DNA of 64,000 nt from Apostichopus japonicus (taxonomy: Eukaryota > Echinodermata > Holothuroidea > Aspidochirotida > Stichopodidae), in NCBI RefSeq assembly GCF_037975245.1, contig NC_092578.1, positions 19,133,321 to 19,197,320 of the forward strand, in the 5' to 3' direction. Under the pieces are notes generated by a model. It was not told the DNA's origin. It did no database searches and worked only from the letters and a program-made list of their open reading frames with translations. Shown one piece after another: positions 16,756 through 51,559 of the stretch; position 1 is the stretch's first letter; every line of letters begins with the position of its first letter. The position numbers and the translations under genes were made by a program.

Positions 16756-16763
16756 CCAGATTG

Positions 16764-18065: not shown

Positions 18066-18073
18066 TTACTTGT

Positions 18074-19560: not shown

Positions 19561-20197
19561 CAACAGCAGTAACCTTGTGTAACTTCACGTATTGTGTTAT
19601 GCCGCAGTGGCACAGATACAGACACTCTAGTTGCCATGTCAGTAAGTCAAGTTGTATATAATTTTTCAATCTCAAACAAGGAAACATTACTTAAGTAAAT
19701 TATTCCACGGATGTAAACTTCACTGCAAGAGCAAATTTACAGACATTTTTATTTGCTTCGAGCAATTTTGACTCCCAACCTTTACAAGTATAGTTCTCAA
19801 CATTTACGGCAGAATTTGGTCAAACCATCAATGAAATCACATAGCTGAAGAAAAGTTCACTAAATCACTAGGCGAGATCATCATGATCGCTATCCTTTAT
19901 TACGAGAAGATTATTAGACTTACTATCATGAATTTACCATATATCAGACACATGGTGTTCAGGTACTTGGTCTTTCCCTAAACACTGCAGCATAATACAC
20001 CCAGACTATTGCAAATTACACACACAATGCTATCTTAGGGGAACCTACAGATTATGTATAAATAATGAAAGAAGGTTGAGACAAGTAAGAAACAAAGAGT
20101 ACAAGAAAGAAATAAAATGACAATTGTTCGGGTTTGTTTTCAAGTTCATGTATATTTTGTAGAGTAATATCATTCATTGCTTGTATGTCTATTCTAG

Positions 20198-21690
20198 CAT
20201 CCTTAAAAATGTCTCAACCACCAAACCCCTACGCAGGTGGGATGCCAGGAAAGAGAACACCAGAGATGCCACCAAATCCATACCATGGGGGACATCCAGG
20301 TCAGAGGTCACCATGGGGTCATTCATCTCCACGGCACTTCAACCAATATTCCAATTCAAGGCAGGTCCACACATTAAATTTAATACGTACAGTATGTTTA
20401 TCGGGTGGATGAGTTTAATTATTGAAATGTGAATGCGACAACCAGTGCACGTTTAATGATCTCAGTGGACTAAGAGTACCTAATAGTTCCAATTTAACTC
20501 TGTATGTGAAGTTATTCCACGTAAGTCTCCGAGGCAAGATTTGTAGTAATAATATTATTGGTTGCTTCTCCATGCAAAGCTGAAAAGTGATTCTAAATTT
20601 GCTGTGATTCTAACTGCCTGCTTTTTATTTTACAGACAGCATAGTCAGAGCATGCCAAGTAACCAGTGGGGATATTCCCCTCACCATTCTGGAGGAAGTC
20701 CTCACTTTACCCCACCACACAAGCCAAGTTACTCTCCTATCCCCATGCAGCCTTTCTCAACACCGTATTCCAACAACAGGGGTCAGAGAGGGCGACCTTC
20801 CATGGGTGCAGGTAATACACCGTATGGGGACAAAAGACAGGGACAGAAGACATTCCACAAAGACAGGAGGTTCTCAGGTGGCGGTGGTGGACGAGGAGGT
20901 CATAAGGTAGGGAAACAATGTTCTGCACTGTTTATGATGTTGCCTGTTAATAGGTTACATCGTAGAGATGTATGTAACATAATATATTAACTATAACTTA
21001 ATTGTTATATTTTCCCCCACTTTCAGAGAGGATCAGATGCTCCCATTGAGCGATATGTAAAGGATGACATGTTGCAAAACCCCTGGGCTGAGCTGGAGAG
21101 AAGAGAGGGAAATCCCCCCGCTGCAACGTAGGTCGTCCGATACTTGAGGTTAGTCAACTATTTCTCCTTAAGTAGAAGAGAGAGACAGAGAAGAACAGAA
21201 AAGTCAAAATTAGCAAGCTAGTGCAACCATGATTCAGAACTAGATTTGTGCGTAAGAAATTTGACTGTTAACGAATGGTTTTCCCCAAAAAGAGTGAGAA
21301 ACAGTTGTTATCGCCTGTTGTACTTACTGCTAAATCTCCTTTTTTATTTCTTTTATTTTTGCAGACACATAGTCAGAAATGTTCCTCAAGTGCTGAATTG
21401 TTAATAAATGTTAATTTTTAAAGAGTTCCAATACCGCCAGTTCTTATGAATCCTGGTGTAGTTCATACGAACCTGATGCTTCGTCAAGAATGTTTTCTCT
21501 AGATAGATATTTTGTTTTCACATGTCAGCTCTGCATATTCATAATCGAAGCTTCCTATCTTGTAAATTAATATCGTCTAGTTTAAAAGTGAGCATTTATA
21601 AGCATATTACTTGTATCCTCAGTTGTCAGAAAGGTGCAGAATGGGTTACGGCCAGATGCTCACATGTCTACACTGCTAGGTTACAATAAA
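20198..21690 (+). CDS. MPLKIP: MPLKIP / TTDN1-like protein, 3 or 4 coding exons
   Basis: In human this is a small nuclear protein mutated in non-photosensitive trichothiodystrophy and reported to bind PLK1. Start chosen at ATG 20209, after a splice acceptor at 20196-20197. Coding exons are 20209-20364, 20640-20906 and 21027-21131 (stop TAG 21129-21131), giving 175 aa (human 179). Residues 1-140 are low complexity (Gly, Pro, Ser, Arg; two NPYxGG repeats near the N-terminus). The diagnostic part is the C-terminal IERYVKDDMLQNPWAELE, which aligns with human LENYFKPSMLEDPWAGLE. The exon 2 acceptor is the second of two AGs (ACAGACAG|CAT); only that one keeps the frame. A C|GTAGGT donor at 21127/21128 could instead join to 21365 and give a 187-aa form ending at TAA 21404. 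A poly(A) signal AATAAA lies at 21685-21690. Convergent with CDK12 downstream. Confidence 0.85.
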
Positions 21691-22387
21691 TGTGCATGAG
21701 AAAATGGAATGTATGTGGTTGTTGGGAGATTCGCTGTATCTATCCTAGTTGATACTTTACTTGAGTTAGCATACAGTATATGGTTTCAAGTTCTCAGGGT
21801 GGGTGGAAAATATTCTGCACTGGAAATTTATTGATATAGTTCACTCCTTGCTTACTTATCCTAACCTTAATACATATATGCACTCTGATCCTCCTAGCCC
21901 ACCACAAAAACTGATAGCAGTTGTGCTCCCCCCTCCCCCCCCCCACCTAAATTGATCCACTTAAGGTCACTACCCACTTAAGTTCCTCTTCCTATCATCA
22001 TGAAGACTGAAAACAACTTCCAAGTGCTCATATATTTGACAATTGCTTGAAGCCCGTTTGGGTTAGTGGTTTGGTTAAGATTCCTGATAACATTTTTCAT
22101 CCCTCCATCAAGCACTCTGTGTGTGGAAATTAATGTAACTCTCTCTGTTAAACAATCCTCAAACAAAGATATAACAAATACATGAAACACATGTCTAATG
22201 TCAATTTTTATTATGATTACACAATCTTTCTGCACAGAGAATATGTATTAAGTTACTCTTTCTACTATATTAACTCCTTCAACACTTCTGTTAGTGCTTT
22301 AGTCAAGTCTTGCAACACCTTCCCAACAATTGTATCTATTCCTAGACTAATAAGATTCGTAGGATACGTATAAGATACAGGTCAATA
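21691..22387. other. No gene seen downstream of MPLKIP
   Basis: Intergenic DNA with a C-run at 21929-21945. The ORFs are short and not recognised. Confidence 0.5.
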
Positions 22388-22620
22388 CTATGACAACCAT
22401 TGGATCAAGCTGATCAGGCAACTGGATCAAGCTGATCAGGCAAGCACTTGATCTAGCTGATCAGGAAACCACTTGATCAGGCTGATCAGGTAACCACTGG
22501 ATCAAGCTGATCAGGCAACTGGATCAAGCTGATCAGGCAACCACTGGATTAAGCTGATCAGGCAACTGGATCAAGCTGATCAGGAAACCACTTGATCAAG
22601 CAAGCACATGATCAGGCTTA
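22388..22620. repeat. GATC-rich tandem repeat, 22/26-bp units
   Basis: About ten units of CTGGATCAAGCTGATCAGGCAA, with or without an extra four bases (CCAC). Nearly every unit has two GATC tetramers, one inside the palindrome TGATCA. The array decays at the right edge. Confidence 0.9.
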
Positions 22621-25600
22621 GAAACTGCAAATAACATGTTTTGTGGCAGATAGTGATAGAGCCTTAAAGGGTAGGTATATGAAAGTCTAGGCACTTTAGT
22701 AAGCAAAATGTGAATTGATAGGAAACAAGCCAGCTGTTTGTTAAAGGTTAGTAATGAAGCACTGAAAGCTGAATTAATATAGTCAAATCAAGTAGAGTTA
22801 TGATCTTTTCTGAAACAAAGAAAAGTTTGTGAAAGGACATTAGTGATGTTATCAGGTCTGAAAGATCTTAGTTATGAGTGAACTGGTACATGTTCTTGAT
22901 ATGGTCAATGTTCTGAATGCATCTTGACTTGGTACCTCAAGCTATTTAAAATGAAATTACGAGTAGGCCTACTAAATTTCTGTATACAAATATCTGATTT
23001 TTGTTAACTTTCTAGGAGACTTGCCCCTATGCATAGATGGAGCAGAACAGTTGAGGAAGATGCCATTGTTCATCACGGATGGATTTGAACCATCCACAGT
23101 CTAGCTGTGCCACCAGGGCGTGATATTATAGAGATGACACAAAGTCCTCAACAGTTCTATGGAAGGCCGAACGAGTCTTTTCTTGGATAGATCAGTTTGA
23201 GTTGGAGGCGATAATTCATGAAAGCTTGAGGTAAAACATCTTATTCAGCTAATTCTGATGTAATGAGATGGCATGTACACTGTGCTAAGTGGGATAAAAG
23301 AGTATGCTGAAATTTGGATATATGCACAAAACCTGGACAGTTCTATGGAAGGCCAAATGAGCATTGTGGGGATATTAGAACTTGAGATGATGACAAATTC
23401 AGAATGTGTTGACATAAAGTATCTCGTGCAAGCTTATTCTGATACATTGCAATGGGTTTCTCCATATGCACCAAGTGATACGAATGTTGTGTGGAAATCT
23501 GAGGAATCTACTTCCAAATCAGGCTTCCCAGCTTTGATTGAAATACATAGTTTGCTCAGTAAAACTAACGATGGTGTTTCTTGGGTTTTGTCGAGCAATC
23601 TATTGAATTGCTGATATTGTGGCTAAATTTAATAGATATTGGTTGGACATACTGTCCAGTATTCCCTACTGACTTTATGTTATCATTTAAGGGAAATATA
23701 TTAATGAATTAAAGCTTTAATTTTTATTGCAAAGAATCTGTGAACAAAAATCTATTTCCAGAACCTGTTTATATGGCATGATAAGGAAAATGAATGTCAT
23801 GTCCAACATTGAAAGGTGTGTACTTTTACTTGTTCTAAAACTAGTGGACAAAAGAAGAGATTTAGTTTTAGTGGGCTAAATATGTGTGGTTCTTGCACTT
23901 CACAGGAGGAAATTCATCTCAATTCAGAGAGTATTTTTAGAAATTATAGCACCTCCTGGACTAGCAATGACAACATTTCTTCTTCAAACATTTGTGATTT
24001 ACAAATTTTGTCTAAAAGATCCTTTGCAAGTGCTGTGAACATGTTCTATTATGGTGCAGACATACTGGGTGTTTGACCTAATATTTATCCAAAACATTTC
24101 CTTGGGGGGGGGGGAGTGGGAGGGGTTTTGAAAGTTATGACTAGCCACTACAACATTTATAGCTGTCAATGTATTTAATTTTGAAGTGAAATGAACATAT
24201 ATATATGTAATTTGCTTCATTCACTATTTATAAGCTTAGTCTGACAGTTGTCAATTTTATTTTAGTCTTCCGTTTTGTCTGTACAGTTTAAACAGATGGC
24301 TTCGTTTACATTTTAACCAACTATCCTGTAATCAAACACTTGGCATGAAGTAAGACAAACACACATGTGGAAAAAGGATTTCACTACTCCCAATGAAAAA
24401 GTTTTTGTCCTACAAAATTGGAAGTTTCATTCATTTGCAAACCTGTTAAGTCCATGCCTAATTAAATCATTTTAAGATTCCTTTCAGTGGGCTTTTATAG
24501 TATTCTTTTTTAATTCTTGTAAATTTCCATCATAAGTTCAGTAGGCCTATAAGCAAAACCAAGTTGTGGCAAACGCAACATCAAAAAAATACATATTTTA
24601 ACAAATTATCTCTGTGGATTCAGTGGATAACCTAAATGCTTAGCATGTTTAAGTTCTGAAATCTCACTGGATTGAGGGTTATGTTAGGTCCGTTTCCCCG
24701 GATATCTCCTCCTTTTTCCACCTAGTTTATCATAAACATGTAGCATGGTCCATTTACAAAATTCAACTTGACAACTAACGATAGACACAGAGGTACACAA
24801 TATGGATGATTTAGTTTGCCTGGAGGACAGTATGTTTTTGTTGTCATCATGGGAATACCCTGATGATTTTAGTAATGTATGAATGTGGGTGAAATTAGTC
24901 TACATTATTTTCAACTTTTATTACTCTTCTATCATGGACCTACGAGATACTCATTACATAAACCTCATTTTGTTCTGCTGCATAACATTCTGCACAGCTT
25001 CTTAAGTTTGCGGTTGGATTAAACATTTGTGACAAAGCTATTTGTAACTAATAAATTCCACTATGATCACAGGGATTATATTAATTATAGTAATGTTTTG
25101 TTTTGATGTTCATCTTTTTAAAGGCTGTATCATGTAAATTGTTCTTGTTAGTTTGAATACATTTTAGCTTCCGTATATTTTATCACAATCTAGCAGTTAT
25201 GTTGTAATTCTTTGCTATGTTGCATTAATACAGAGGCTCCCCATTTTTCATTATTGAATAATTCATGGTTTCTGATTGAATGATTCAAGAGTGTATTACA
25301 TTCATTGGAGCAATATCATTGGACAGTGGATACCACTGAAATTAATCAAATATGTTAATAATCATGGATTGTCTTTCAAACCACATGAAATTGTTTCACT
25401 AGTGTGATATTTATATCCATTTACATATTTCTTTGGTAGAAAGGGTAGTCGAAAGGTGTTAAAATTGGAAAGGCAAACTGGAGAGCCAATAGGCTTTATG
25501 ATTCGTTGCAACATTCTCTATGGGAAAAGCAAATGTAACACTGCATGCTAGATTTGACCTTTGAACTAACAGGTGACAACAAAGTACTGGTAATCACATA

Positions 25601-25639
25601 TGTAAATTAAGAAAGATGTTACTATGAGCTTTACTTTGG
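22621..25639. other. Gene-poor stretch with traces of duplication
   Basis: No gene is supported. ACAGTTCTATGGAAGGCC occurs at 23151 and again at 23336, with weaker similarity continuing on both sides (CTTATTCTGATA versus CTAATTCTGATG), suggesting an old tandem duplication of about 185 bp that includes the 113-codon ORF at 23273-23614. A minus-strand tRNA-like fragment lies at 23070-23120 (B-box-like GGTTCAAATCC, A-box-like TGGCACAGCTAG, spaced too closely for a tRNA). A G-run lies at 24104-24113. Confidence 0.5.
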
Positions 25640-26345
25640 AGTAAACTGTCTTTGCAAGGTTTTTAGACTTTGACCTCTAATGACACTTGACTTTAACAAA
25701 AGGTAACTACACTTCTCGACTCACTAAGCTATTACATGGATTTTATTGTAACTTCATTTGTAGTTCATGTGTACAAGGTTTTTTACTTTTACATCTGTTG
25801 GCACTAATGACCTGTGACCTTTAAGAAGCAGTCTCAAGGTGTTAAAGAAGAAAACAAGAAAGCCAACAGGCTTAGTGATTCCTTGCAACATTCTCTATGG
25901 GGAAGCTCAATGTAACACTGCATGCAAGATTTTAAGATTTTGACCTTAAATGACCTTTGCCCAACAGATAACAACTAAGTTTTGGTAATTACAAATCTAA
26001 ATTAATTGATCTAAATTCCAGCTTTACTTTGGAGTAAAGAGTCCTTACAAGCTTTTTTGACTTCAAATGACCTTTGATTAGAACTAACAAGTTCTTGACT
26101 CACAAATTCTTATTGACATACCAGATATGAAGTTCATTCAAACTTTATTTTTAGCTACTGTTTACAAGGTTTGTTGGCCAGTAATGACCTGTGACCTTAG
26201 GAAAAACAATTTCTCTTATTCACAAAATAGGTTCCATATGCTAGGTATCAAGTTCACCCAAGTTTTTACTTTATGAATTTACCTTGTTTTACCAGTTTGA
26301 CTTTTAACCTCTGGTGACCTCAAATGACCTTTGCACAAACAGTAC
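25640..26345. repeat. Degenerate tandem repeat rich in TGACCT half-sites, locus 1
   Basis: A block of the form GACTTTGACCTCTAATGACACTTGACTTT or AATGACCTTTGCCCAACAG recurs about every 120-135 bp (near 25668, 25805, 25935, 26060, 26178 and 26305). Between blocks come shared phrases such as TTACAAGGTTTT and ACTTTGGAGT. Copies are heavily diverged. Similar blocks occur near 29520-30340 and 44860-45560. Confidence 0.75.
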
Positions 26346-29300
26346 GGTTTCATTTTAACAGGTTGTTTCAGATTCTCATTCCAAAACACCAACTATTCAG
26401 CAATGGTACATTGTCGTGATCAAACAGTCGCAATGGAAGAAGGGGACTGGGAGTGGATCAAATTAATTAAACCAAGGCTATATCTTGAGTGACCTTTCTT
26501 GTTTCTTAATTTGCTTGAAGTTGCATGTTTTGTGTACTAACAGACCCTTGGTATTAGACATTATTTGAAGTTTGCGGAAGGGGGACAGACTGAATTTGAA
26601 TGTGGGTGGGGCAGGGAACGCATGTTTACACTAACGCCCCCCCCCCCTTATACATTGGAGGTTACAAATTAGAAATACCACATTAGAAGGCTATTGCACT
26701 CCTCTCTCAACTTCAGATGGAATATTTTGCTTTTAGCTACTCATACAGCAAATATTTTCATTGTTATTAAATACTGTTGCATACAAATCACAATTGGGCA
26801 AGCTTTATGTCTTTCACCTGTATCACTAAGTGTAGGAGATGGGCAGATGTTTTATACTATTAATCTACTATGTAGACAGGCCGTAGGTAACAAAGCCTTG
26901 ATTTTCACTTTTAATTCTTGATAAAGTGCCAGTTAATGTTACTGATTGAGACATTTCCAAAATAGTGCAACTTAATACTGTTTTTTGTCTTCTTTTGACT
27001 GAGGGGGTGAGTTATTAGCAGTGCAGTTTTTCCTCAAACTTCATTTGTAGAAGTCTCGGTTTATCTTGTGTAAACTACTTTCTTTTCTAAACAAAACATT
27101 CTGCAAGAAATACTGAGAAAGCCAATCACTTTCACAAACACTGGAGTTTATATAACCTTTACATTAGCGATCACAAATTCCCAGTGTTTGTAGGGCAAGA
27201 ACTGTGTGGGTTAGAGTTTGACACGAACCATGTGGGGCAGTTGTTGTACATACTGGTAAACCTGTAACAGACCCAACTTGGGACAATTAATGGGGCTCAA
27301 CTCAAACAAGGCACAAGGAGAATGATTCAAATAACACAGAAAATGAATCATGGGCGGTACCCAGAAGCATACTTTGAAAGTAAAATGGTCGTTTCAAAAC
27401 TTAGCAGTTCATAACAGTAGAATGTTTCATTTCCACAATTTTATGGGATTCTTGTCATTAACCTTTGTAAACTGATGGTTTCTCAATCCTTCATCTGAAA
27501 TATTCTGCCATTTGAACTTAACTACATCTACAAAATCATTTTCACATCTTTTCCTTGATGTATCTCAAAGTCTATAATTGTCCTGAATGGTATTCCACTA
27601 AGCAATCAATCATAAAAAGTGGTATGCAGATATACCTTCAAATATTTGTTGCTTTTCCCTCATCAGATAAGCCAATGCATTCGAGTAGGTTCCACCATTG
27701 TCATTTGATTCTCTCACTCTGAAGGCCTAATAAAGGGACGGTCCTACGTCCTTAGAGGGCAAAATAATATATTCGGTCTCAAATTAAACACACTTTAAGG
27801 AAAAACAAACTATCAAAAATTAACTGGGTCAGAAGAAACAACTAAATTCAAACTCTTTTCTTGCATGTTCATAACATATGTTACAAAAATGATAATTCTG
27901 TGCTTCAAGTCACACTGTGAACACATAATTTTGTTAGGAAATAATTTGATTTGATACCTAAATAAGTCACTACAATGTGGATTGTTTGTCACATCTTTTT
28001 GAAGGAAGACAAGATCCATTTCAATCTTAGAGAACACTTTGATTTCCAAAGAATGCTTCTGTTTACACCCATTTATCTTATTAATTAGTTTACGACCCTA
28101 CCTGTTGTCTCAGTTTTTTCCTCCATCTCAGTCCTCAAACCACACAAGACGAAAAAGATCCACTTTAAATAAAAGTCTTCTTTTATTTGACAATTAAACA
28201 AGATATTAATTCCAGAGTTCCATTTTAATGGCTTTTCTACATCCACATTCCATCCTGATCGTTGTTTCATCCGTGCCAGAGTCCACTTGAAGTGATAATA
28301 AACAGAGCCATTATCCCCCTTATCTGCCACCTCCGTCAGAAGGAACAACCTTGTGATGTCTTCAAATTTCCTCTTCAGACGAGTGGTTCAAAAACGGCAT
28401 CCTCTCCTTGCCTCCTCTTAGCACAGCAAATCCTCAGAAATGTTGATAGTGTCTCGTTCAAAGCAGTATACACATGACAAATACATTCATCCTTTATAAC
28501 ATCCGCTTTCATATAGAAAAGTATACATTTAATTATCAGCAAAAGGAGAGCTTTGTACTCTTTAGAGGGGTTAGAAGGGAAATAACAGCTGATATCAATC
28601 ATCAAAATGGGATAAATTTGACATGTTATTGGGAGATAAATACTAGCTAGGTTTAAAGGAACTTTGTGAGTCTGCTTAAACAGTCCCCCCCCCCCCCGCC
28701 CCTTCCTTTCCCTGCTTGTAATATTACAATTAAGCCTACAGATATTGTTAGCCAAATGAACAAACACTACAGATCCCAATTCTCAGTTTCGTTCCACGAC
28801 AGCAAATTAAAATATAGCGATCAATTTGTTATCAATGCTCAGGTTTGTCAATGTTAATATTTCTTATCATATACAAGCAACATATTGCGATAAAGAGTTA
28901 CATCATTTAGGAATAGCAAAGTCTGTGAAATGTATTAAGGCAAAAATTCCTACCATAGAATATAATAATAACAAAACTTAAGTTATGTACTTATAATAAA
29001 AGATTTTAATTTCGAATAATATTAATCAAGTTGACCACAGGAATATTCTTATACTTCACTTTTAGATCTAATAAACATGTTAATCAGGTGAAATTATTCT
29101 CATTAAACTTTGTTTGCATTAAAAACAGCTCACTGAAATCACCTGGACCTACAGTATGAGCAAATGTAATGTATTTCCACTTGATACAACCACAATTAGC
29201 GATAAGAACTTGACAATGTCAAAATAAATTAAAACACTATATCAGAATCATATAGTCCAATGGAACTCTACAATATCTTGTTATGAAGTAACTAAGCTAT

Positions 29301-29510
29301 TAATCAGTTTAAATTTTCAGATCACAAAGATAATCCTACTGGCATCAAATTAGAAAGCCAATAAGCTTTGTGGTCCCTTGTCACATTATATATGAGAACA
29401 CTCAACAATTTTTCAAGTTGATTATTGATTTCACAGGATATACAAGGTTTAATGGGGACCTGCAATGAGGATGGCCTAAAATTAGGCTCTACAAGCCTAC
29501 AGTGGAGTCC
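26346..29510. other. Gene-poor stretch; one weak exon candidate
   Basis: Intergenic DNA with C-runs at 26637-26648 and 28683-28697. A minus-strand open frame from about 28370 to 28103 (containing LTEVADKGDNGSVYYHFKW) ends at a good donor (CAG|GTAGGG) and may be an exon of an unrecognised gene, but no partner exon or family match was found. Confidence 0.4.
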
Positions 29511-30345
29511 ACAATGATTTTAGACTTTGTTGACCTCAAATGACATTTGATTAATGTATGTCGTCCAGTTACAGAGTTGTTGACAATTAACAATTCATAA
29601 TCATGGACGTTAAATATGAATGTAAGAGACTGACTTCGGTCAGCTTGCGGCTTTGATAAGCCAATGAGGCTTCTTCGCGAGTTCCTGCTTGCAGGAGGAT
29701 CTAATATACATACATACATACATTTGCCATCCATAGGTAACAATAGGGTCCTTTGACTTCTCTAACAAAAAAAAACTAAAACTGCATCAGTGAAATCTAT
29801 GCTTATAACAAGTGCTGACTAGTAGGCTGAAAGCCTCCGTTGTGGCAGCTGTTGTAAACATAGTTAGTCTCATGTATTAGAAGCTTTAAATACAACTATT
29901 ACAAAACTGCAGTGTACATTGTGCACATAAGGTTCTCCTACTTAATTCCAATTATGAAGTTCATTAAAGCTTCACCTTTGCAACTATTACATGGTTTTCA
30001 GAATTAAACCAATGCAAACAATTGGATACTCCTGGTTTTTTTATCTTGTCGTTTGTTGACCTTTAATAACCTTTGACCTCTGCAGAATGCAATAGGGTGT
30101 TTTAAATTACCACGTAAATCAAAGGTTCACTTTTGGAGTTGTGTTTACAGTTTTCAGACTTTGACATCTGTTGACCTCAAATGATCTTTGACCTCCACAG
30201 ACAAGACTAGTATTCAATAAGGTTGGTCAATATACCAAGTTAAAATTACATCCAGATATTTTTGAGCTCTCATGTTTACAAATTTTCAGATTTGACATCT
30301 GTTGACCTCAAATAACCTTGGTACAAATTGGTTTCATTCTGGACA
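29511..30345. repeat. TGACCT half-site repeat, locus 2, with a hairpin element
   Basis: Copies of GACATCTGTTGACCTCAAATGATCTTTGACCTCCACAGA-type sequence occur near 29522, 30050, 30157 and 30290. Between them, 29630-29725 carries a GC-rich block with a hairpin (CTCCTGCAAGCAGGA read on the minus strand) followed by (ACAT)n, which looks like the tail of a different dispersed element. Confidence 0.7.
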
Positions 30346-31181
30346 TCATATCAACCTAACAGGTAAACCTGTAACACTCCCCAGCCCTTTGTTTATACTA
30401 TAACTTTGAAGTTAACTATCAATATTCCAGCACAGTTCATAAGTTATTTATCAGTCTGTAACACTGAAATAATGTACATACAGGGTAAGGTCTATCAGGA
30501 ATTACATACTAAATGAGAATCAAAACTGTTTCGTTTTTTTCAATATTATTAAAGTTATATCCATAAAACTAAATGATATATATATATATATATATATCTA
30601 GGTCCTTTTAGTTTAAATTGACTATTATGTGCTTCCAACTATAACAATGTAAGAGTAACCTTCAATACATACACAATTCATGTAAGGGAACCGACAAAAA
30701 GTGCTTTTCAGTGAAACAAAGGAAACAAGACGCACACTTTTTTCTCTTGTATTTATCTTGATCATTACAAAGCTTTTTTAACACTGTTGCATCTTATGGT
30801 GTCAAGTCTGTCATGCTCAGCATGGGGGAAGTGCAGGGTGAAAAATGGGACAATGTTAAAGCATTTCCTAAGTTCAAAATTAAATCAACAAATCCATGTT
30901 ACTAATTTTGACACCATTTCTTGGACAAACTGGACAGATTTGTGTCACTTTCAGTCCATCATTGCAACTTCAAGACTGATGTCAATCAGTCTAATTCATT
31001 CAAGCTTCCCCCAACCCACCCCCACCCCCAAAAAAAATTAATAATAATTTTAACATCTTAATTATATCATAACTTACTGAAATTTCCAAGAAGAGACAGA
31101 TGTCATGTTGTCTTTTGTGAGAAACAACAAAACTAAGTTTGATAAATTCACTGCCACAATTTTTCCTTCTGACCTGTCCAC

Positions 31182-31227
<46 letters not shown>

Positions 31228-32437
31228 CATATATATATATATATATATATAGCCAGCATTAAGCTACAAAGTATTTTTTTCCCGTCCCAAATGGTGCATG
31301 AGGCTGGTAAATTAGCATCATCACTCAATGACGTTTTGAAAATATCAAAAGTCTTGACTAAAACTGTTGCCTATTTGATTTCAGAGGGGAAAGGCCTCTT
31401 GTACCATATACAACATCTATTAAGACACAATGTTGTGACACAAATTCACAATGAAGTTTTGTGCAAATGTACCTGCTTGACAATTGTCACGTTGCAAACA
31501 AAACCAGCTGTTATAAACATCAACTTTAAAGAGAGAAAGCAAAAACAAGGGGGGGGGGGATGGGGATGTCAGAAAAAGGGCAAGAATTTACCAAATGCCT
31601 ACAAAACTGACAAACATATTTTTTGATAATCAACCTGAAAAAAAAAAGTTATTTGATGCTTTGGTAACTCAAATGTGGATATATATAGAGGAAGGTATTA
31701 CATCACATGGAAATCGCATCAGAAGAGTTCAGCTCATTTTAGATTTGTCTGTCAGGTATAGATTATGAAATATGGATCATGAAATATTGACTATAAAGAG
31801 AATATCATTCTCTAGGTGATTCTTGTAATAAATAGTTTCATTACATGTCTGATCAAATTTTTACTTTTGTAATGCATTTCAGAATAATAATCTATCAATA
31901 TCTGTGTGCTACACTAAAAAATTTACCGTTGACACTGCTTCATGATCAACCATTTCTTTATAATCTCTTGAGAGGAAATAGCTGAAATAGACCAGGAGAT
32001 CCATTTTGTTTTGTTCCATCAGGCACAGAAAATATACTTCCATTTGTAACTTATATCAAGAAGTACCTCACATGATATTTCCTCCAAGGTCTCAAACCTT
32101 GCAAAGTTTGCATTAGTACTTGCTTTCATGACATTAGAACCTAACACATTTCAAGACACTAAATATTGATCTTTTTTTGGAAGAGTTCTCACACTGTAGT
32201 CTGTAGCTATATGATCACAAATATCCTCTCTGGCCATGGTACTGCATAAATCATTTTCTACAGCTGGCAATACACAGAGAGCAAAATTGAAACATTTTCC
32301 CTTGTCGTCGAGAGTTAACCCTAGATGACATGATCTTCACATTTCTGAAAACCTTGTTCAAAATTCGTTTTTCCGTCAGCTCCAGTGTTCCTTTCAAGTA
32401 TATTATATAAACACATCACTTTTAAATTGCTGACAGG
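30346..32437. other. Intergenic and CDK12 3' flank
   Basis: Contains (TA)n at 30573-30597 and at 31184-31249 (interrupted by CATGTACA), and a G-run at 31550-31559. The 31.5-32.4 kb part may be the CDK12 3' UTR. No convincing separate gene; the ORFs across the TA repeat are artefacts. Confidence 0.5.
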
Positions 32438-35400
32438 TCACCTCCATCCTGTCCCGGGACCTGCCCCCAAGGATCGACCCCTCCCGTATTGTCTGGGCCC
32501 TACTGAACCCCTGCCAGCCATTCTACTATAGTTACCATCCATAACTGATCCTCCCCTCTCTGGCATTGACAACACTGGACCTCTATCCCTACTACTCATT
32601 GAAGACAGATCTGGTCTGCTGCCCCTGTCAGAATCATACCCATAATGCCTCTGCCTGTAACTAGAATCTTGTTCGGGCAAAGATCTCTCCCGGAAGGAGG
32701 AACTGTGGGAATTATCGTTAAAAGATTGTTCGGGTCTAGGGCCCCTTTCTTCACTGTCTATGGTGTTCCCCTCTTCCCTGTATGACGAAGATTGAGAAGG
32801 GGAGAGAGAGGCATCTTCTCCTAACCCGGACGGTTTACCCTGAAGCATTTGCATGAGGGCAGCTTTGACTCCAGGGGTAGCCAAGGAAAAGTCTGCCTCA
32901 TGGGTAACGCCTGTACCCTGTTCGGGTGAATCTGGTGGAGGGGGTCCATCTGGGGTGGGGGGTTTCCACATACTACTACTACCTGATTGACTATACACCG
33001 AATCATCCCCCTCATCAATTCCTTCATACGTGTCTACCTGTTCGGACTGATTGGAATCGTAACTCATTTGAGTTTCGAATCCAGTGTTGGAGTGAGACCT
33101 CTGAAGGGAATCCTGTGACTCATCCTGTAGTACACTGCTTGTTCGGGACTCCTTATCACTATCAAGAAGAAACGGGATTGGGGCCTCTGTGGAACCAGCA
33201 GAATTCATTGGCTTACCAAATAGAGTGGAAACTGATTGTTGTAGGCTGCTCATGTTAGATCTCGAAGCTTCTTCTTTGGCGGAAGACGGGGCGTTGTCTG
33301 CCTTGGAGTGGGAACTCTTCTCAGCTTTGCCTGATGACTTGGAGGTTAGTATATCCATCAGATGAGCAGCTGCATTCGATTCAGCCTGCTTCTCTCCCTG
33401 CTTGCTGGCGGCAGCCGCTAAAATCAGCTGCATGTTCAAGTTTTTCAAGAGTTCAATGGTGGTGGGATCAACTTTGACATTCACTGCCTCTGCTAACTTG
33501 TTGATATCTAACGATGGCTGATCCTTGGACATGTTGATCAGGGTTAACAATTTGTCCTTGGTTGGTGGTTTCGCCTCAGAGCGAGGTTCCTTTTTGGAAA
33601 CCGCAGCCTTCTGTGGCACGGGGGTCTCCTTAGTTTCCTCCACCGGCTTTGACTTTGAATGTGGCTGATCACCGCCACCACCAATCCCTGGTATCTCCAC
33701 TTTATCATCGGTGGAGACCAACCCCAGCCCTGCTGCCTCTTTGCGAGCCTGCTTGGACAGGGTTGCCTCCGGCTGGCTACCTTGACCAGCTTGCTGTTGC
33801 TGCTGCTGCTGTTGCTGCTGCTGTTGTTGCTGTTGTCGCTCTTGGCGTCTACGTTTCTTGCTCCACATCTCATGACAATCCTGCCAATGTGGGAGGCTAG
33901 ATAAGGGGATGCAAAGACATCAAGCAATAACAAAGAGAAACTTGGCAAGTTAAGGGGGGGGGGGATGAAGAAAAAAAGAGCATGTTACATCAATCTCATC
34001 ATTATCATCCATCAAAATTTAATCAATAGTTATACAACTTTAAATTAATACTTACCACATGACAAGTCCTGCTCAGTGTACTGTACATGAGTCATTACAG
34101 AAGCTAGGATTCTCTTTTCTTTGGCTCTTTCAAAAGTACAATCAAAGGGGGCGTGAAAATATGACAACGGGTGTGATGTAAAACTCCATACAATCTATCC
34201 AGTCATATTTTGTTTACAGATATCAACATATACAACATAGACTTTAATAATCAGCAGTGGCTAGCCTGAAGTTCACCCCTTTTGTTAAAATGGAAGACCA
34301 ACATAAAAAAACATAAAATATAAAAAATAGGGAAAAGTTTGTAACTCACTTTGGTGCTGGCATCTTGGTAACATCTACTCCTTTCAGCCATGAGCAATTC
34401 AATGCGTCGGTGGCCGTGATACGCTTCTCCGGATCCAGGACAAGCATCCGATCTAGTAAGTCCAGAGCCTGTTTTGGTAAACTACAAGAGGGCAGCAAAT
34501 AGATAAAAATTTTAAATAAATATCAATACAACTACCATCCAAATGACCCATAATTTTACACAGTTCTGTACGTGTAGTTCTAAATTCAACTTCTATCAAT
34601 CTCATAATGTAACCACTAACCATCAATACCAAAAGATGTCTTAATCTTAACATAACTAATTATCAAACAAATATTCTTTAAAATTGAATCACAAATCTTG
34701 CAAATTTTTTCATCTTGCAAATTTGTTGTTAATATCGGACAATATTGCTTGTTTGTGTGTGGAAACAGTGTAACAAACACATGCTCAACTAACTTAAAAG
34801 TCTCTCCAGTAATATCTCACAGATTGACATTTCTGTACATTAGGCTTGCAAAATCTTCATAATATAAATGTGCTTTGAGAAAAACCATCATGATATGTAG
34901 TCTATGAAGAGCAAATCCTCAAGAACCAACTTTTCATGACACAAATGGGAAATGTTAATGAAACCCACACATCATAAGTGACTTACAGACTAAATTCTTC
35001 TCTAAGTTTTCGTGTATAATTCTTCTTTGCCTTGAAGGTATGGAAGAGTGGAAGGTGGATGACATTCGGCCAGACAGCTGGTGTGGGGGAGCCACACAGC
35101 CGGCTGATTAACTCAAGCTGAGCCATCTCTTGCACTGCCTGTAAACAGTTAAAAAAGGACAAATGACATTTAACAACACCATGGAATAATGAGTGGATTT
35201 CTACCTCCAATACAGATCTTTCCCAGAACACTTCTGCACAGGACTACCTAACCTAATGGGCTTTTGTGCTGAAAAGTTGCCTTTATTAAAGCTTCATGTT
35301 GCATTATGGCATTAAAAGTTTACAAATAGCTTGAACTATTGCTGTCTGCTTCCATTTAAGACATAGAAGACTTTCTCAAACTTTCAGACACCTCTAGTGG

Positions 35401-38400
35401 CATTCTCATGAGAGGCAGCACCATTGTCACAGTTACAGTATACACCGACCAACAAAAGGTGGTCTCAGTGCTAAAACTTCACAAAGCATTTGAGATGGTC
35501 TTGGCACAAAGTGTGCAAGTCTAGCATACCACTTGTGCAACTAACCAATGGAGAATGAGATTGCACACATGGACTCGAAAGAGGATCAATAAAAACATGG
35601 ATGATATTGGGGTGCTTTGTGACATACATTAATGTTGTTAGACTGTATGGGGAAGACATCTCCTGAACAACATTATCCATGTTAAGTAGTAAACACAGCT
35701 GTACAAAAAGGACTTACCTGAAAGATGGGTTTCCTGGTGAATAGTTCGCCCAGAATACACCCACAGCTCCACACATCTATCGCTGGGCCGTACCTCTCTT
35801 CTCCTAATAGTAACTCTGGCGGACGGTACCAGAGGGTTATGACCTTGTTCGTATAAGGCCTCGTTTTGTCATCTGCGTGATATAATCTGGCGAGTCCAAA
35901 ATCTCCTAACTTGATCTGACCCTGTTTTGAAAAATCAAACAAGGTTCAAAGGTTGGCCGTATTCAAAACGACAAATTCATGTAGATGACATATATTTTGA
36001 GAGCGATACCACTCTGAAGAAGCTTCACTTCCTAACAAAATGGATCATCCAAATGTGAAAAAGAAATCTGCTATTTCAGGGAAATCAATACTACCAAAAT
36101 CCCTACAAAGACAAACAGAAATTTAATTTAACCAACTACGAGGCACAAGATCATATATTCCAGGGTTACTCAGGATTTACAGGTTTTGTTTCCAAACTTT
36201 GAGAAATACTTTCAAAGAGAAAGTTATGATGGTTTATTTCAACCAGCTCCGCTTGTCAAATACCAGGTCTAACTTAAACAAGTTTCAGGCTGAGTTCAAA
36301 TGTTTAAAAAGGCGGCTAAAAACAAAAACAATAGCTTACTCTATTGTTCAGAAGAATATTTGAGCACTTGATGTCTCTGTGTAGGAAATTCTTCTTATGG
36401 CAATAGCTGAGACCATCTAACAGCTGCTTCATGAAAGATTTGATGTTATCGTCTGAGAAGTTCACCAGACCAGATTCCAATATCCCCATCAAATCATGAT
36501 CCATGTATTCAAATACTAAGTAAAAGGCACCTAAAACAAAGAACAAAACATGATTACACTCAGCGATTGTTGTGACAATCTTGTCAGATATTGTCAGAAA
36601 TTATGCTCAAACTCTAGATCACAATTTGCATTCATTTGTGGGGAGTCTTGATATTACTATTAAAATTTGATAGCTAGCTGACTAGGCAAACTTCAATTCC
36701 AGACAAAATGCTAGGAATGTGAACATTTTCTGAATTTGCTGCAAGTGACTAATTACTACCATGAAAAAGGTGTCAGAATCAAAGGATTAATAGTAGGATT
36801 AATTAGCTTTAAGTTACATTCATTTGCTGGTACAGTCTGATTAAAGGCTACCATACTATACTTGTAGTTCAATGAATCCCATTCAACTATTAATAATGTT
36901 CGGTGACTTTCTCAAAACTGCCCAAAATTGGAGCAGCTGCTATTGTAAAGCTGTTATAGTTGCAATGTAAAGTCTATCGTCAAGGGTAGATGCAAAAGTA
37001 CAAAAAACGTACTGTCACCTTGTTGTGGTATTAGTGTCAAAACAGATGCTTTCATATCTCTTCACTAAATATATCTGAAACTCTGTTTAGTGTCAAAATG
37101 ATTTCAAGGTTGTTATTGTCATCCTAGTAGAGTCACTAACTGATTCCACTGTTACAACTCTAAGCAGTCAAACAAAATATACAAGCCTGTTCATTTCCCA
37201 CTTAAAATGACTACAAACTACTGGTTTATTTGTAAAGGTAATTAATGACCATTAGCCACTGAGAACTAACTGTAGAAAACTATCATTTTTAATTCAAATT
37301 TCCACTTTAGGAATTTTGAAGATAACAAGGATGGCATGCAATCCTTAACTTCCAACTGTAAACCTGGTTTGTATTGTGTGCGTAATTACGTGTTATTTTT
37401 GTAATTTAGAAAGATCGACTGGAGTCGGTTGCGACGTCTAAAAGTTGGTCAAAAAGCTTAAATTATCAAGAAAAAACCAAACATACATACCTTTATCTTT
37501 CTTGAAATCCAATGCATCTTGTTTATCGGTAACTATCTCCTTAAGTTTCACTATGCTTGCATGATTTAATTGTCTAAGTATTTTGATTTCTCTGACTGCT
37601 GTAATTGGGAAACCTTCTTTCTCATTGTCCGTTCTCACTTTCTTTAAGGCAACTAATTCTCCTGGAAAACCAAATACAAACCAAAAGAGAAAAGTAAGTA
37701 AACAACTCCCTTTAATGAACAAACTGCATTAACTGGCAATATATCAATGGTATTATTAAAATACAATTGTATTTTGCTTTTCTAATACCCCTCCTCCCCC
37801 CCCCCCTCCCACCCAAAGAAAAAGAGTTCTTCAACAGCATTCTAGATCTAGTTTATCTAATTACCCTTAATTTCAAATGATCACAAATGGACAAGGAACA
37901 AACTATTCAAATTAATTAATGTTAATTATCCCTGTGACTTGAAACTATTTGACCTCTCCTGAGGTCAAATACAAACTCTCAACTCTGACAACTAAATCAT
38001 ATGCACTAGCATTTGTCCAGACCAGACAAGATGCTGCTGTCAACTGCTTGTTAACATTAGGGCAACGGTGGAGCTAAGGGGCAGGTATGTTGGCAAACAT
38101 ACCTCCCATCACGAACATAATGTTTTTCAATACACTGACACCCATTTTCGACAACACATAGTATCCCCTAATATTGATTCCCTCAAACACACGTCCCTAC
38201 CCTTCCCCTGATCTTCAATATAAAGAGAAAGAAAAGGAGAAATTCTTACCAGTATCTTTGTCTCTTCCCTTATAGACCTGACCGTACGTGCCCTCTCCTA
38301 CAGGGTTGATAATTTCGTACGTCTCCACCGATCTCTCACCCCACGACGCCGTGCTCCCGTACAGCTTTGCTCGTTTCTTGCGGATGGCCTCGCGCTTGAC

Positions 38401-41400
38401 TCTGCCAACCTCAGATGTCTTGCCTTTTCCAAATGCCTTACCCCCCGGCGGTGTGGTCTGAGATGTCTGTTGAGGGGTCACCTTGGGGGAAGGGGTGGGC
38501 TTTTCTGATTTCACTCTTGGCGACTTTGTTGACTCAGACGGCTTCTTTTCTGCCACCGGTAAGGAAGGTGGCATCGGGAGGTCTGAAATCAAGGGCCTAG
38601 GTTTGGACTCTTCCTTCTTTAACTCCTTCTTGACCGGGGAATGGACGATAGGGGGCATCGGCAAATCAGAAATCAACTTCAGCGGAGAGTTGCTTCTCTT
38701 AATTACTGGTTTACTGTTCAGTGGTGACTGCTCCTTCTTCAGATCCTTCTTGATGATAAGGTTTGGCAACTTGTTCGAGGAGAGCGAGGACGATATGGGC
38801 TTTGGGGCTTCGGTGACAGTCCTTGCGGGAGACGATTCTATACTCGGTCCTTGGACCCGTTTCTTGGCTGCTGATGACTTGGTCATCTCCTTTAGTTGTT
38901 CTTCCAGCTGGAGATGTTGCTCGTCTTCCTCTTCTCCTGCCTCTTCTTCCTCCTCCTCCTCATCTTCCTCTTCCTCTTCTTCCTCATCGTCATCAACCTC
39001 CCCTTCTTCAGATTCATCGTCATCAATCACTTCCACCTCGTCACCGTTATCCTTGGCAAACTTTTGCTTTGCGCTGCTGGCCTTTGGAACGGGTACGGGA
39101 GAGGACTGAGCAGACTCGGACTTTTTCAACCGGGCCGTCTCTAGTCTCTCCCTGTGGTGCTTGCTCAATTCTGAAAACAGTCCCATGTGATACTTAGCAC
39201 TGTCTAAATCTAGGCTACCACTACTGCCTCGTATATGGCGTGATCTAGGCTGCGGACTGTTCCGAGAGTTCGATCTAGATCGCGATTTGTTTCTCCTGGA
39301 TACTTTGTGTTTGGAACTGCTAGATGACCTTGACCTTGACCTTCTCGATCTTTTTCTGAAAAAATGAAACATGAATTAAGAAATGAATGAGGTCACAATC
39401 ATCAAGTCTGCTTAGTTTGGAAAGTTGGGCAATTTGCAAAAACTCAAAAAGTCACAATTAAACAGGCAAAAGTATTTGTAAATGCAATCACTATGACAGA
39501 AGCCCTGATTTCTCAAATTTAAAAATAGAATGAAAAATATGGTTCCGTGATAGAAACCATCAAAGTCTTCACAATTAGAGCAAAAGATCTGATATACAGA
39601 AAGTGAGTATGTTACCCAAATCCAAAGGCTTGGAGTGCTGAGTGAATATGTCTGTCATTTCTGGGTGGTTAGCTTATACATTCAAAGACTAACTATATCA
39701 ATGAAGGTACAATATATGCACACCAAAATGTGCTCTGAAGGTCAGATCCCTCAATCCAAAACATGTTCCCTCCCTCTCCCTGTCACATACGTACATCATC
39801 AGTAAGCAATTACATTTGACAAAGCAAAGCAGTGAAAATTTCCACCAGAAAAGGAATTAATTAGTTTTACAACTACAAAATCAGTTAAAGACTGGGTAGT
39901 CACTGTCAACAATGCCTTCTCAAGTACGAAGTATGAAGAAAAAACATAGTCGTGCACTATTCACTCTGGTGGAATCATCCATGAACAGTGTGCTACCATG
40001 TAAGAGTGAATAATTTCTTCAGAATCACATCTGTGTTACTGTTGATAGCCAATTTGCAATTGATAAACCATGGGAGTGTTATCTTGACTATATCATGCAT
40101 CAACCACATAGATCCTTGCCAGAATTATGTCATGACAAAGAAATTACATAAAGTTTAGAAACCTTGATGCTACCATGCAAAACTTGCTACTGGAATAACT
40201 ATCATACGGAGCAAATGCTTTACTGCCAAGTAGGAATTTATCCAGTATCGCAGAGCAAAATTGACAAATTGATATACAACCTTGTACAAAGGTGTAAAGT
40301 AGCTGTTCAATGGGGACCACATGTAGTATTTTATAAGAAATATAGCTCAGAGGCTTCAAAACTGCTACACAAAATTTGAACACTCAATTATTCTGTGCAT
40401 TACAACAAGTCCTTTGTTTTTATAATTTCGAGTACATTCATCATCTAGTGAAGAGAGGAAGTGAAGGAGATGACATCTTTAGCAACACACTTGGCAAAGC
40501 AAAAGCAAATTCTTTCACTTGCTTCCATAGCGTTACTTTACGTTACAAAAAACTATAATGTCAAATTCAAGTATTGCAGAAATTATTTTAAATATTGAGC
40601 TTCCTTTAACTACAGAGTGATTCCGTTATGAAGTGGAAAGAGGTGATTGCTGGATAATGGCCAAGCATCTCCCTTGTTTCAAACAAACAAACGAAAAAGC
40701 GATTGTCCTAACTTTGTGTTGTTTTAAATTTATGACAAACAATGGGTGTTTCCTTCTATGTCATTAAGGTGGAAAAGGCATTCATTGCTATAATTAAAAA
40801 AAAAACATTCTGTAATACTTTCTACAGAAATATATACTGTTGTGTCTGCACTTTTAAGGCACTTGGAGAAAAACAATTTTTTTTAACAAAGGCCTGCCAA
40901 ATTCAATAAACTAATGTCATCATTAACTATGCTAAGACCAACGGGCTGTAAGAATTAACAAACAAAACAGCATACAAATAATGCAGCCTATGAAACATGA
41001 CTACAACCAATGTTGTTCTTATGTCTGGGTGTGATTTTAAACCATTCAAAGGAATCTCTAGAACAGTTTACTAACATTGGTCAGTATTTCATATTTTTTA
41101 TCAGGAAATTATGGCAAGATTTATTTTCATTAATGACTAGTCTACACTCATTTCAATAATGAATAGCAGATAATTAGGGAAAGTTCTGATTTGCTGTGAA
41201 TTGCAGGTAATGAAGATATGGCATAACTTGTGTTATTTACAATCAAATAGAAAATCATTAATTTAATACTAAACAACATTTATAAATATGGTGAAAAAAA
41301 TCATGGAAACTCAGTTTGATCAATAGCCATACTATTTCGCAAACAATATAGCAGCTCTAATGCATCATGATGATTTGCTAGCCAAACTAAGATAACAAAC

Positions 41401-43575
41401 TTGTATAACAACAATGAATAGAATAAATTAATGGGTAGTTTGTTTTGCAGCAACGGATACAGATGTTAATGTTGCTCATCTCTGTGTCCAAGCAGTGATT
41501 GGTTTCCTTGATCAAACACAATGTGGCCAAGATATCTAACCGTCTGCAGAGTACTACAACCTTCATGGCAACATTAAGTGTCACTTGTTGCCTGCTAACT
41601 GAAGGTGACCAATAAAGCTAAATGATATTATCATAAACACATTTTCTAGTTAACTGAATTTAATTTGCATAATTAATTTTATTTTGCATAGCATGAAGAG
41701 CTGAATAACATGGTTCCTACAAAGAGCTGAGGACTAACTAAGCATGTCTTCATGATTTGTATAAAAAAAAATGAAATGGCAGTTAGCTACGATACCACAA
41801 AATGATTCCTTCATCAAACAAATATTTATACTACAGCGATTCAGCGAAGCTCAACACTGGACAGTGCCATTGTGTCGAGAAAGACCTGAGCCACGCAGCC
41901 TCGAACTGCCTATCACCAGGCAACATATTAGGTTATGTACACTTCACAATTTAATTTCGAAAATACAGGATGATGGGTTGCAATTGAAATATTCTCTCAC
42001 AAAGCCTTGTAAAGGCACACATTCCACTAAAACAGAAAGCAAATTTTAATTCTGTTTTTACATATAGTTTGTGAAATGCATGTTCCCCCAACCTGATCTA
42101 GTCCCAATGGTACTCTTGTCAATGGAACTACCTTTCCCGAAATGCTCTTATACTGCAAAAGATTAGGTGGGTTATGAAATAAAATTTGTCAATGTTTTGG
42201 TATGCTGACCATTCTCCACTGTAGTGGTTGCCCCCTTTGGAGTATAAAAGTTGTTGAGAAAGTATGTGTTTAAAAGAGAGCAATTTATCTCTCATACGGT
42301 CATGCCCTACTGTAGCTGTAGTAGCAATTTGAAACATGTCTTTACCCTACAATGATAGCAAATTGTTCAAAGAAACACATCAATCAATACTGTAAGTTAG
42401 AGTTTATTTTTTAGCCTTTACTTAACAAAAGATACCTAGGTCTTTCTTCTTTTCAGGGGAGAGAAGGCCAGGAAAGGGACATGGGAAGGGATTATTTTGG
42501 ATTACGGCTGCAAAATTTCACTTTCTGTGTAAAATGGTATAGTACGATGGTGAAGAGTCATCCAATTGCAATTGCTTTAATACTGTACTGTAGATAAAGC
42601 AAAATGGCTTTCCAGGTGTTGGGATGATTGTTACTTCATGTTGAGGCATAAGCTGTAACTGTATTGAATATGTTCTTGCTTATGATTTCTTACTGAAAAA
42701 TACCTTTCGAGTGCAACACCTTGCCTACTATGCTGGGAGTTACAACCTCCCACCAGGTTACTGTACTCTAACAATGAGCCTACTGCAAACTTACAATTAT
42801 AAAATCCATAGATTGAGGAAAGACATATAAAGCAAACAAGAAAACTGTCAAACTACTACTATGCACACAGTCTTGTGTTATTTCCAGATACTAACCTATG
42901 ACTAGGGCTTCTGCTACTGGCATGCTTGCGTGATCTTCTGTACTCCGACCTACTGTCATAATAGTCTCCTTCTGGACTTGCACGCCTCTTGGGGCTCCGC
43001 TTGGGCATCAATTTAACAAGTTCTTGGGTCTTTTGTCTGTATGGCGAAGGAGATCGTGATCTCTTACGTTTACTACTTTTGCTTCGCTCGGGCTTATACT
43101 TAAAATCTGGATTGTCTGACATATCACGATATGCCTTTGGGGGTTCGGGACTAGGGCTTCGAGGGCGATAGGCCCTTGGGGGTGACCTGGCCCTGTGTCT
43201 TGACTTAGAGGAAGACCGGTGGGTGGAATGGGGGGAGTTGCGGACTGCCAGAGTTCGATACTGCTTTATGGCAGTTCCTGGCGACAAGCTGCGGACGTGT
43301 TTAATGACCTCTGGGTCAGGGGAGACCTGGTCAACGGACACTGGGCTCTCCGAATAGTCTTCTTCTTCGCTACTTATCGCATCGTACTCGACCAAAGGTT
43401 TCACTGGCACGTTCTCTCGCCGGGAGTCCAGGCGTGACTTCTCTCGCTTGTGCTTGTGTCTGGACTTTTTGTGTTTCCGTGGCTTCTCCGGCTGTGGACT
43501 CTCCATGCGATATGACCTGTGACCATGATGATGGTGCCCTGGTGATACTGGGCTATGCCTTCTGTGGGATGGCAT
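32438..43575 (-). CDS. CDK12: Cyclin-dependent kinase 12/13, complete, 8 coding exons
   Basis: Cyclin K-dependent nuclear kinase that phosphorylates the RNA polymerase II C-terminal domain and supports elongation and RNA processing. Exons in transcript order: 43575-42896, 39355-38250, 37661-37491, 36530-36340, 35921-35718, 35138-34987, 34481-34350, 33896-32438; all phases agree, giving 1364 aa. Residues 1 to about 300 form an RS-rich region, followed by an acidic Asp/Glu stretch and a Pro/Lys/Ser linker. The kinase domain starts near Y573: GEGTYG 580-585, catalytic K602, PITAVRE 614-620 (PITAIRE in human), HRDIKCSN 703-710, DFG 723-725, T-loop T740 in [15 protein letters not shown]. The family extension [17 protein letters not shown] follows the domain, then a run of about 15 Gln and a Ser-rich tail. 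A 5' UTR acceptor is at 43605-43607. Invertebrates usually have one gene for both vertebrate paralogues, so the symbol stands for CDK12/13. Confidence 0.96.
33785..33838 (-). repeat. CAG/CAA repeat encoding polyglutamine in CDK12
   Basis: Plus strand reads TTGCTGTTGCTGCTGCTGCTG and similar, that is mixed CAG and CAA codons on the coding strand. It encodes about 15 Gln directly after the RRRQERQ extension of the kinase. CAA interruptions make it more stable than a pure CAG tract. Confidence 0.9.
39356..42895 (-). other. CDK12 intron 1, 3.5 kb
   Basis: Separates the first RS-rich exon (ending at codon position 2) from the second. The donor is AG|GTTAGT and the acceptor TTTTTTCAG. No embedded gene or clear transposon is seen; the short ORFs are not recognised. 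Confidence 0.75.
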
Positions 43576-43604
43576 CCTGTCCTTCAGTTCATAAGGTCAG
43601 ATAA

Positions 43605-44850: not shown

Positions 44851-44859
44851 ACAAGGTTT

Positions 44860-47253: not shown

Positions 47254-47261
47254 CAAACTTC

Positions 47262-47643: not shown

Positions 47644-47651
47644 CAAACTTC

Positions 47652-51269: not shown

Positions 51270-51339
51270 TATTATTTTATGCGATTTTGTGAAGTGCTTT
51301 GAGATTATTCTTTGATGTAAAGCCATATATAAGAATAAA

Positions 51340-51340: not shown

Positions 51341-51559
<219 letters not shown>

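Follow-up and report, generated by a model that had tools for sequence, protein, structure and literature searches.

A probably inherited convergent pair of CDK12/13 and putative MPLKIP genes in Apostichopus japonicus, arranged as MPLKIP and CDK13 in human

The window, a stretch of 64,000 nucleotides from Apostichopus japonicus, probably contains an inherited convergent gene pair, consisting of MPLKIP (TTDN1) and the single pre-duplication CDK12/13 gene, with the order and orientation of human MPLKIP and CDK13. MPLKIP is located on the plus strand and CDK12/13 on the minus strand, with 11,306 bases between the stop codons (21132-32437). In a preliminary description of this DNA a tail-to-tail position as in human was claimed. 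This was confirmed by both gene models, by their strands and by the human positions in Table 2 of PMC4754937 (hg19). In this table, the CDK13 variants c.2600+276A>G at 40087752 and c.2781-240A>G at 40117364 are listed as genomic A>G. As the coding and the genomic exchange are identical, CDK13 lies on the plus strand. For MPLKIP, c.339+1G>A is given as C>T on the genomic level at 40173827, which indicates the minus strand; C7orf10 (SUGCT) is found at 40191226 (plus). As far as given in this table, human 7p14.1 thus carries CDK13(+) and then MPLKIP(-), with the same order and convergent orientation as in the window.

For MPLKIP, three coding exons with GT-AG introns were modelled on the plus strand, at 20209-20364 (ATG at 20209), 20640-20906 and 21027-21131 (conserved C-terminal motif, stop codon TAG at 21129-21131). 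The predicted protein of 175 amino acids matched the Pfam family PF15502 (MPLKIP) with E=8e-5. The score of 23.2 bits does not reach the curated cut-off (28.9 bits); up to E=1, no other family was matched. Exon 3 by itself also matched PF15502 (E=1e-4). The match spans about 20-34 residues in the C-terminal part. Because of this short match and the sub-threshold score, the gene was named by similarity and not by the curated cut-off; on this short stretch the similarity to PF15502 is specific.

It is very unlikely that the gene at 20.2 kb encodes, instead of MPLKIP, a different Gly/Pro/Ser-rich protein which carries a short motif of similar kind. Such a protein would fit the short match under the cut-off, exons 1 and 2, whose open frames gave no match when taken alone, and the PDB comparison, in which no relative was found (best E=0.29). 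It would also fit the three coding exons, compared with two in human. However, PF15502 was the single family matched, and none of eight shuffled versions matched any Pfam family up to E=10, a control limited by the HMMER filters, which discard most matches above about 0.1. The C-terminal motif is preceded by a Gly/Pro/Ser-rich region, a trait of the MPLKIP family. Furthermore, CDK12/13 adjoins as in human, which raises the prior for MPLKIP.

A possible alternative fourth exon at 21365-21404 (plus strand, GT-AG intron 21128-21364, stop codon 21402-21404) was proposed from the sequence only and would lead to a protein of 187 amino acids. As its addition leaves the score for PF15502 no higher (23.1 bits, compared with 23.2 bits without it), this exon is unproven. 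Candidate poly(A) signals AATAAA of MPLKIP were detected on the plus strand at 21685-21690 and, as a second candidate, at 21403, both as consensus matches only. With regard to the origin of the pair, the short match below the curated cut-off and the different number of coding exons in human speak against descent.

The CDK12/13 gene was modelled on the minus strand at 32438-43575 with its ATG at 43575, eight coding exons, seven GT-AG introns and one stop codon. Exons 1-4 are located at 43575-42896, 39355-38250, 37661-37491 and 36530-36340, exons 5-8 at 35921-35718, 35138-34987, 34481-34350 and 33896-32438. The predicted protein has 1364 amino acids. Its kinase region scored 605 bits with CDK12 and 603 bits with CDK13, compared with 319 bits for CDK9 and about 251 bits for CDK2. 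Judged from these scores, the kinase domain belongs to CDK12/13 and not to CDK9 or CDK2. Exons 1-2 are RS-rich by reading (Arg/Ser-rich N-terminus), and 464 residues lie C-terminal of the kinase region. A long Arg/Ser-rich N-terminus and a C-terminal extension past the kinase domain are presumably defining for the CDK12/CDK13 family.

The branching of this kinase was judged by simple column and identity counts. Identity in the kinase region was 259/329 (78.7%) with CDK12 and 256/329 (77.8%) with CDK13, whereas CDK12 and CDK13 share 300/329 (91.2%). Exactly two of the three sequences agreed in 72 alignment columns: CDK12 and CDK13 in 53 (one of them a shared gap), the window and CDK12 in 11, the window and CDK13 in 8. 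Since CDK12 and CDK13 are closer to each other, the window kinase is placed by these counts before the CDK12/CDK13 split and outside both vertebrate paralogues. This placement requires only that the duplications are later than the branching of this lineage. Genome duplications are usually dated to vertebrates. An excerpt of PMC9955684 presents CDK12 and CDK13 as ohnologues from whole-genome duplication and places the duplications before chordate origin. Hence, the ancestral site gave rise to both sites, which are equally ancestral, and the earlier suggestion that it was retained by CDK13 and not by CDK12 is unsupported. The difference is the MPLKIP copy surviving beside CDK13. Beside CDK12, MPLKIP is presumably absent.

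The genes on both sides of the pair were compared with the human region. Upstream of MPLKIP and divergent from it, an INPP1-like gene (inositol polyphosphate 1-phosphatase) was located on the minus strand at 11728-14461 (approximate exon ends), with Pfam Inositol_P in two of four stretches scanned. The best PDB match of its stretch 11728-12324 was INPP1 (1inp, E=3e-24), compared with 8.8e-07 for a nucleotidase. Upstream of CDK12/13 and also divergent, an inositol polyphosphate kinase gene (IPMK or IP6K) was located on the plus strand at 55032-58598 (approximate exon ends), with Pfam IPK in two of three stretches scanned. The stretch 57915-58598 matched IPMK (E=1.9e-11) and IP6K (E=2e-07) in the PDB. 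In human, as far as the sources cover this region, SUGCT is located on the far side of MPLKIP, and YAE1D1 (39.6 Mb) on the side of CDK13. One row (HAfT19) of a rat lncRNA study (PMC5774710) names Sugct, Cdk13, Mplkip, Rala and Yae1d1 together for human chromosome 7. RALA, from the same chromosome 7 region as the human pair, was not found beside the pair here.

Six-frame profile scans, all of them within 14600-54900, detected no domain with E of 0.1 or below in any of the six frames of 14600-19590 and 43600-54900, except for DUF2975 (0.066), which was taken as chance. A larger block conserved with human was rejected, with no sign of SUGCT, RALA or YAE1 in these two regions. The region 19591-21131 was scanned only as three plus frames of 20000-21500, and 32438-43599 in two minus frames only, which leaves room for a gene nested in the CDK introns. 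The conserved part is the pair alone; the outer neighbours differ from human SUGCT and YAE1. Thus, no larger block backs descent.

The absence of a gene from the roughly 11 kb between the stop codons, as noticed before, agrees with our scans of the 11,306 bases. In all six frames, with stops read as X, no Pfam family was matched up to E=1. The controls worked: both minus frames of the CDK gene scanned, out of three, gave Pkinase (E=3e-25 and 2e-18), and one of three plus frames scanned of the MPLKIP stretch gave PF15502 (E=7e-4). These control scans also gave weak matches (E 0.03-0.6) to unrelated families. Two longer open frames, 23267-23614 (plus) and 28375-28782 (minus), were rejected as genes, since all their matches were to unrelated families, the best of them at E=0.089. 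ARAGORN and Rfam (gathering thresholds) gave no match anywhere in the whole window. Within the interval lie a tandem array of 25-base units (22394-22601) and a pair of repeats with 73% identity (25447-25670 and 25830-26063). With the optional fourth MPLKIP exon, the interval would shrink to 11,033 bases. In human, it presumably measures about 35 kb, compared with 11.3 kb here, and no other human gene is known between CDK13 and MPLKIP.

On the minus strand, 20 A[AT]TAAA sites were counted from 21 to 33 kb. Past the CDK stop codon, the nearest hexamer of poly(A) type is ATTAAA at 30067, 2,371 bases away. About 5.7 such sites are expected in these 2,371 bases, and none occurred in 0.3% of 2000 first-order Markov sequences, a test which was picked after looking and is thus weak. 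The candidate poly(A) signals of the two genes lie about 8 kb apart. Therefore, transcript overlap of MPLKIP and CDK12/13 is unsupported, and the overlap or shared 3' regulatory region considered in the preliminary description found no backing.

For a random order of 20,000-25,000 genes, chance adjacency amounts to 8e-5 to 1e-4 per pair; if any one of the three adjacencies in the window would count, it is 2.4e-4 to 3e-4. If an ancestral chromosome of 600-1000 genes is shared, the value per pair is 2e-3 to 3.3e-3 and falls to 5e-4 to 8.4e-4 when convergent orientation is required; it reaches at most 1e-2 when any of the three adjacencies is allowed. Because chance adjacency is low, common descent is the best reading of the pair, and from the comparison of two genomes, this one and human, we infer descent rather than a re-meeting of the two genes. 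In collections of viral contigs and genome contigs, with no animal collection among them, no relative of CDK12/13 was found. The ancestral pair proposed earlier is upheld in so far as the genes are convergent here and in human, the kinase is pre-duplication and chance is unlikely; the dating to early deuterostomes is an assumption.

That the adjacency arose twice, from a shared ancestral chromosome and by independent meeting in vertebrates and in this lineage, is quite unlikely. The values for a linkage group of 600-1000 genes, with and without convergence, would allow for such a course, and human and this animal have different outer neighbours. Nevertheless, the probability is still low, the orientation agrees too, and wide persistence of ancient microsynteny is known (excerpt of PMC8851819). 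According to the same excerpt, blocks new in the bilaterian ancestor were largely kept in ambulacrarians and lophotrochozoans, and vertebrates lost 84% of the bilaterian-ancestor blocks, a value for blocks and not for pairs. Survival in human is thus the less common outcome.

With common descent, the last ancestor shared by this animal and vertebrates would already have had the two genes side by side. The genome duplications would have copied the whole segment bearing the pair; the MPLKIP copy beside CDK12 was presumably lost and the copy beside CDK13 survived. The persistence of the pair would most likely be due to slow local rearrangement, probably with no special coupling. In the tail-to-tail layout, the promoters would lie at the far ends with the repeat-bearing interval between them.

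CDK12/13 acts on RNA polymerase II. It is unlikely that selection on a shared cis-regulatory element, on coupled 3' ends or on a chromatin domain kept the pair, with a role of both products in co-transcriptional RNA processing (CDK12/13, and TTDN1 activating Dbr1) as a possible reason. Adjacency and orientation common to human are in line with such selection. TTDN1 binds the lariat debranching enzyme Dbr1 and increases its catalytic efficiency 19-fold in vitro (excerpt of PMC10470207), and constraint-based pairs (regulatory blocks) are described in the excerpt of PMC8851819. In contrast, the candidate ends (ATTAAA at 30067, AATAAA at 21403 and 21685) are far apart, repeats lie within the interval, and the papers mentioning both MPLKIP and CDK12 in our literature search carry neither word in title or abstract. 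That the genes have stayed tail-to-tail since before vertebrates as parts of one pathway (elongating polymerase and intron-lariat turnover), with their output coupled by the convergent 3' interval, is highly improbable. Most likely, the two genes form an ordinary microsyntenic pair of ancient origin rather than a new mechanism.

Microsyntenic pairs and blocks of ancient metazoan origin were reportedly described by Irimia in 2012. Gene regulatory blocks usually have a developmental regulator as their target, a type to which presumably neither MPLKIP nor CDK12/13 belongs. Such blocks (target gene and bystander), as presented in the excerpt of PMC8851819, share conserved adjacency with the pair. 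The likeness to the microsyntenic pairs of this excerpt consists in neighbours of different families kept adjacent in an invertebrate-type genome and a vertebrate, here with one genome besides human. No report on CDK12/13-MPLKIP adjacency in invertebrates was found in literature searches, which covered mostly listed entries and text passages. C7orf11 and CDC2L5 occur together in a cancer expression study.

As it stands, the pair is a modest comparative-genomics note. If it is present in other invertebrates too, it would be one well-defined ancestral adjacency surviving the vertebrate genome duplications. By its position it would then also serve as a marker in the tracing of MPLKIP: as the conserved part comprises only about 20-34 residues here, orthologues of this gene are difficult to detect from their sequence. 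Furthermore, co-regulation of a transcription kinase and a lariat-debranching cofactor would become a question that can be asked.

MPLKIP and CDK12/13 lie tail to tail in the window, and the convergence claimed in the preliminary description, coordinates included, was borne out by gene models on the plus and minus strands. MPLKIP starts at 20209 on the plus strand and comprises three coding exons for 175 residues. Gly (23), Pro (23) and Ser (18) abound in residues 1-141, and the last 34 residues carry a more conserved motif. The sole Pfam match up to E=1 was PF15502, the MPLKIP family (E=8e-5), with 23.2 bits, which falls short of the curated cut-off of 28.9 bits. The last exon by itself also matched PF15502 (E=1e-4), and none of eight shuffled versions matched any Pfam family up to E=10. 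No Pfam match was obtained for the frames of exon 1 and exon 2 by themselves, and no relative was found among PDB sequences (best E=0.29). From this sequence evidence, the gene is accepted as MPLKIP, although its score stays under the formal Pfam threshold. Intron 1 (20361-20640) can be read as GT-AG (20365-20639) or GC-AG (20361-20635), with identical protein either way.

CDK12/13 is encoded on the minus strand from 43575 to 32438 by eight exons (1364 residues, one terminal stop), and its introns are all GT-AG. Against PDB chains the kinase region scored 605 bits with CDK12, 603 with CDK13 and 319 with CDK9; the chains named CDK12 and CDK13 are presumably the human proteins. Because CDK12 and CDK13 agree at 300 of 329 aligned positions, whereas the window kinase is identical to them at 259 and 256, respectively, and because they are joined in 53 of the 72 columns with exactly two of three agreeing (one being a shared gap), the window kinase is predicted to have diverged prior to the CDK12/CDK13 separation, a position taken from simple identity and column counts. 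This also fits a non-vertebrate source. No relative of the kinase was confirmed in the viral and prokaryote contigs scanned.

The stop codons are separated by 11,306 bases. As previously proposed, no gene was detected between them: in all six frames, with stops read as X, no Pfam family was found in this gap up to E=1. Both genes were recovered as controls read likewise, the kinase in both minus frames given (two of three) and PF15502 in a single plus frame out of three. Some weak unrelated families (E 0.03-0.6) appeared as well. Rfam (gathering thresholds) and ARAGORN found nothing over the whole window. Repeats occur in the gap, namely a tandem array with a 25-base unit and two copies of another repeat sharing 73% identity. 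The sequence lends no support to the earlier suggestion that the two genes may share a 3' region or that their transcripts may overlap: the candidate poly(A) signals, all of them consensus matches only, are AATAAA at 21403 and 21685 for MPLKIP and, as the nearest hexamer of this type past the CDK12/13 stop on the strand of that gene, ATTAAA at 30067. Post hoc, the minus strand at 30067-32437 was seen to be free of AATAAA/ATTAAA for 2,370 bases past this stop (about 5.7 expected), which may indicate a long CDK12/13 3' UTR.

In the available part of PMC4754937, Table 2 gives variants along hg19 chromosome 7, and comparison of genomic and coding alleles places, with rising coordinates, CDK13 (plus), MPLKIP (minus) and C7orf10 (SUGCT, plus). 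The human pair is therefore convergent, as had been claimed. The window MPLKIP differs from the human one, described there with two coding exons and 179 residues. The likeness is confined to the pair, which in human we take to have no gene in between; the outer genes differ. Here MPLKIP adjoins an INPP1-like phosphatase gene (11728-14461, minus), and CDK12/13 an inositol polyphosphate kinase gene (IPMK/IP6K-type; 55032-58598, plus). Both belong to inositol phosphate metabolism, which may be coincidence. No domain suggestive of SUGCT, RALA or YAE1 was found in 14600-19590 and 43600-54900. Both outer intergenic regions carry inverted copies (17790-18065 and 47262-47643; 91-94% identical) of what looks like a dispersed repeat. 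Large tandem arrays lie at 620-1313 (89-base unit, 7.8 copies), 3995-5413 (290-base unit, 4.5 copies), 7408-7762 (GTATACAGAA-type), 8565-9282 (17-base unit, 42 copies) and 51340-51562 (ATT, 75 copies).

That linked function favours linkage of the two genes is very improbable. CDK12/13 kinases act on RNA polymerase II during elongation. According to the accessible text of PMC10470207, TTDN1, encoded by MPLKIP, is a binding partner of the lariat-debranching enzyme Dbr1 and makes it catalytically 19-fold more efficient in vitro. In the literature searched, MPLKIP and CDK12 occurred together in only 5 papers, with neither name in a title or abstract, and nothing in favour of coupling was seen in the window.

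The simplest reading is that the pair was inherited, because chance adjacency is improbable: when 20,000-25,000 genes are randomly ordered, a particular pair is adjacent with a computed probability near 1e-4, or a quarter of this with convergent orientation, and the value rises to 2e-3 to 3.3e-3 if the two never left a shared ancestral chromosome carrying 600-1000 genes. For any of the three adjacencies in the window it reaches up to 1e-2 on one such chromosome. Conserved arrangements of neighbouring genes like this one are of an already known kind. The whole-genome duplications concerned are usually dated to vertebrates. In the section of PMC9955684 available, CDK12 and CDK13 are called ohnologues that arose by whole-genome duplication, and the duplications are placed earlier than chordate origins. 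Both loci are therefore equally descended from the ancestral locus, and the view that CDK13, not CDK12, kept the ancestral site is not supported. With no MPLKIP known beside CDK12, the loci would differ in that MPLKIP survived beside CDK13 only. Blocks of microsynteny new in the bilaterian ancestor were largely kept in ambulacrarians and lophotrochozoans, and 84% of them were lost in vertebrates, as stated in the portion of PMC8851819 consulted. Thus, survival of the pair in human is the less common outcome.
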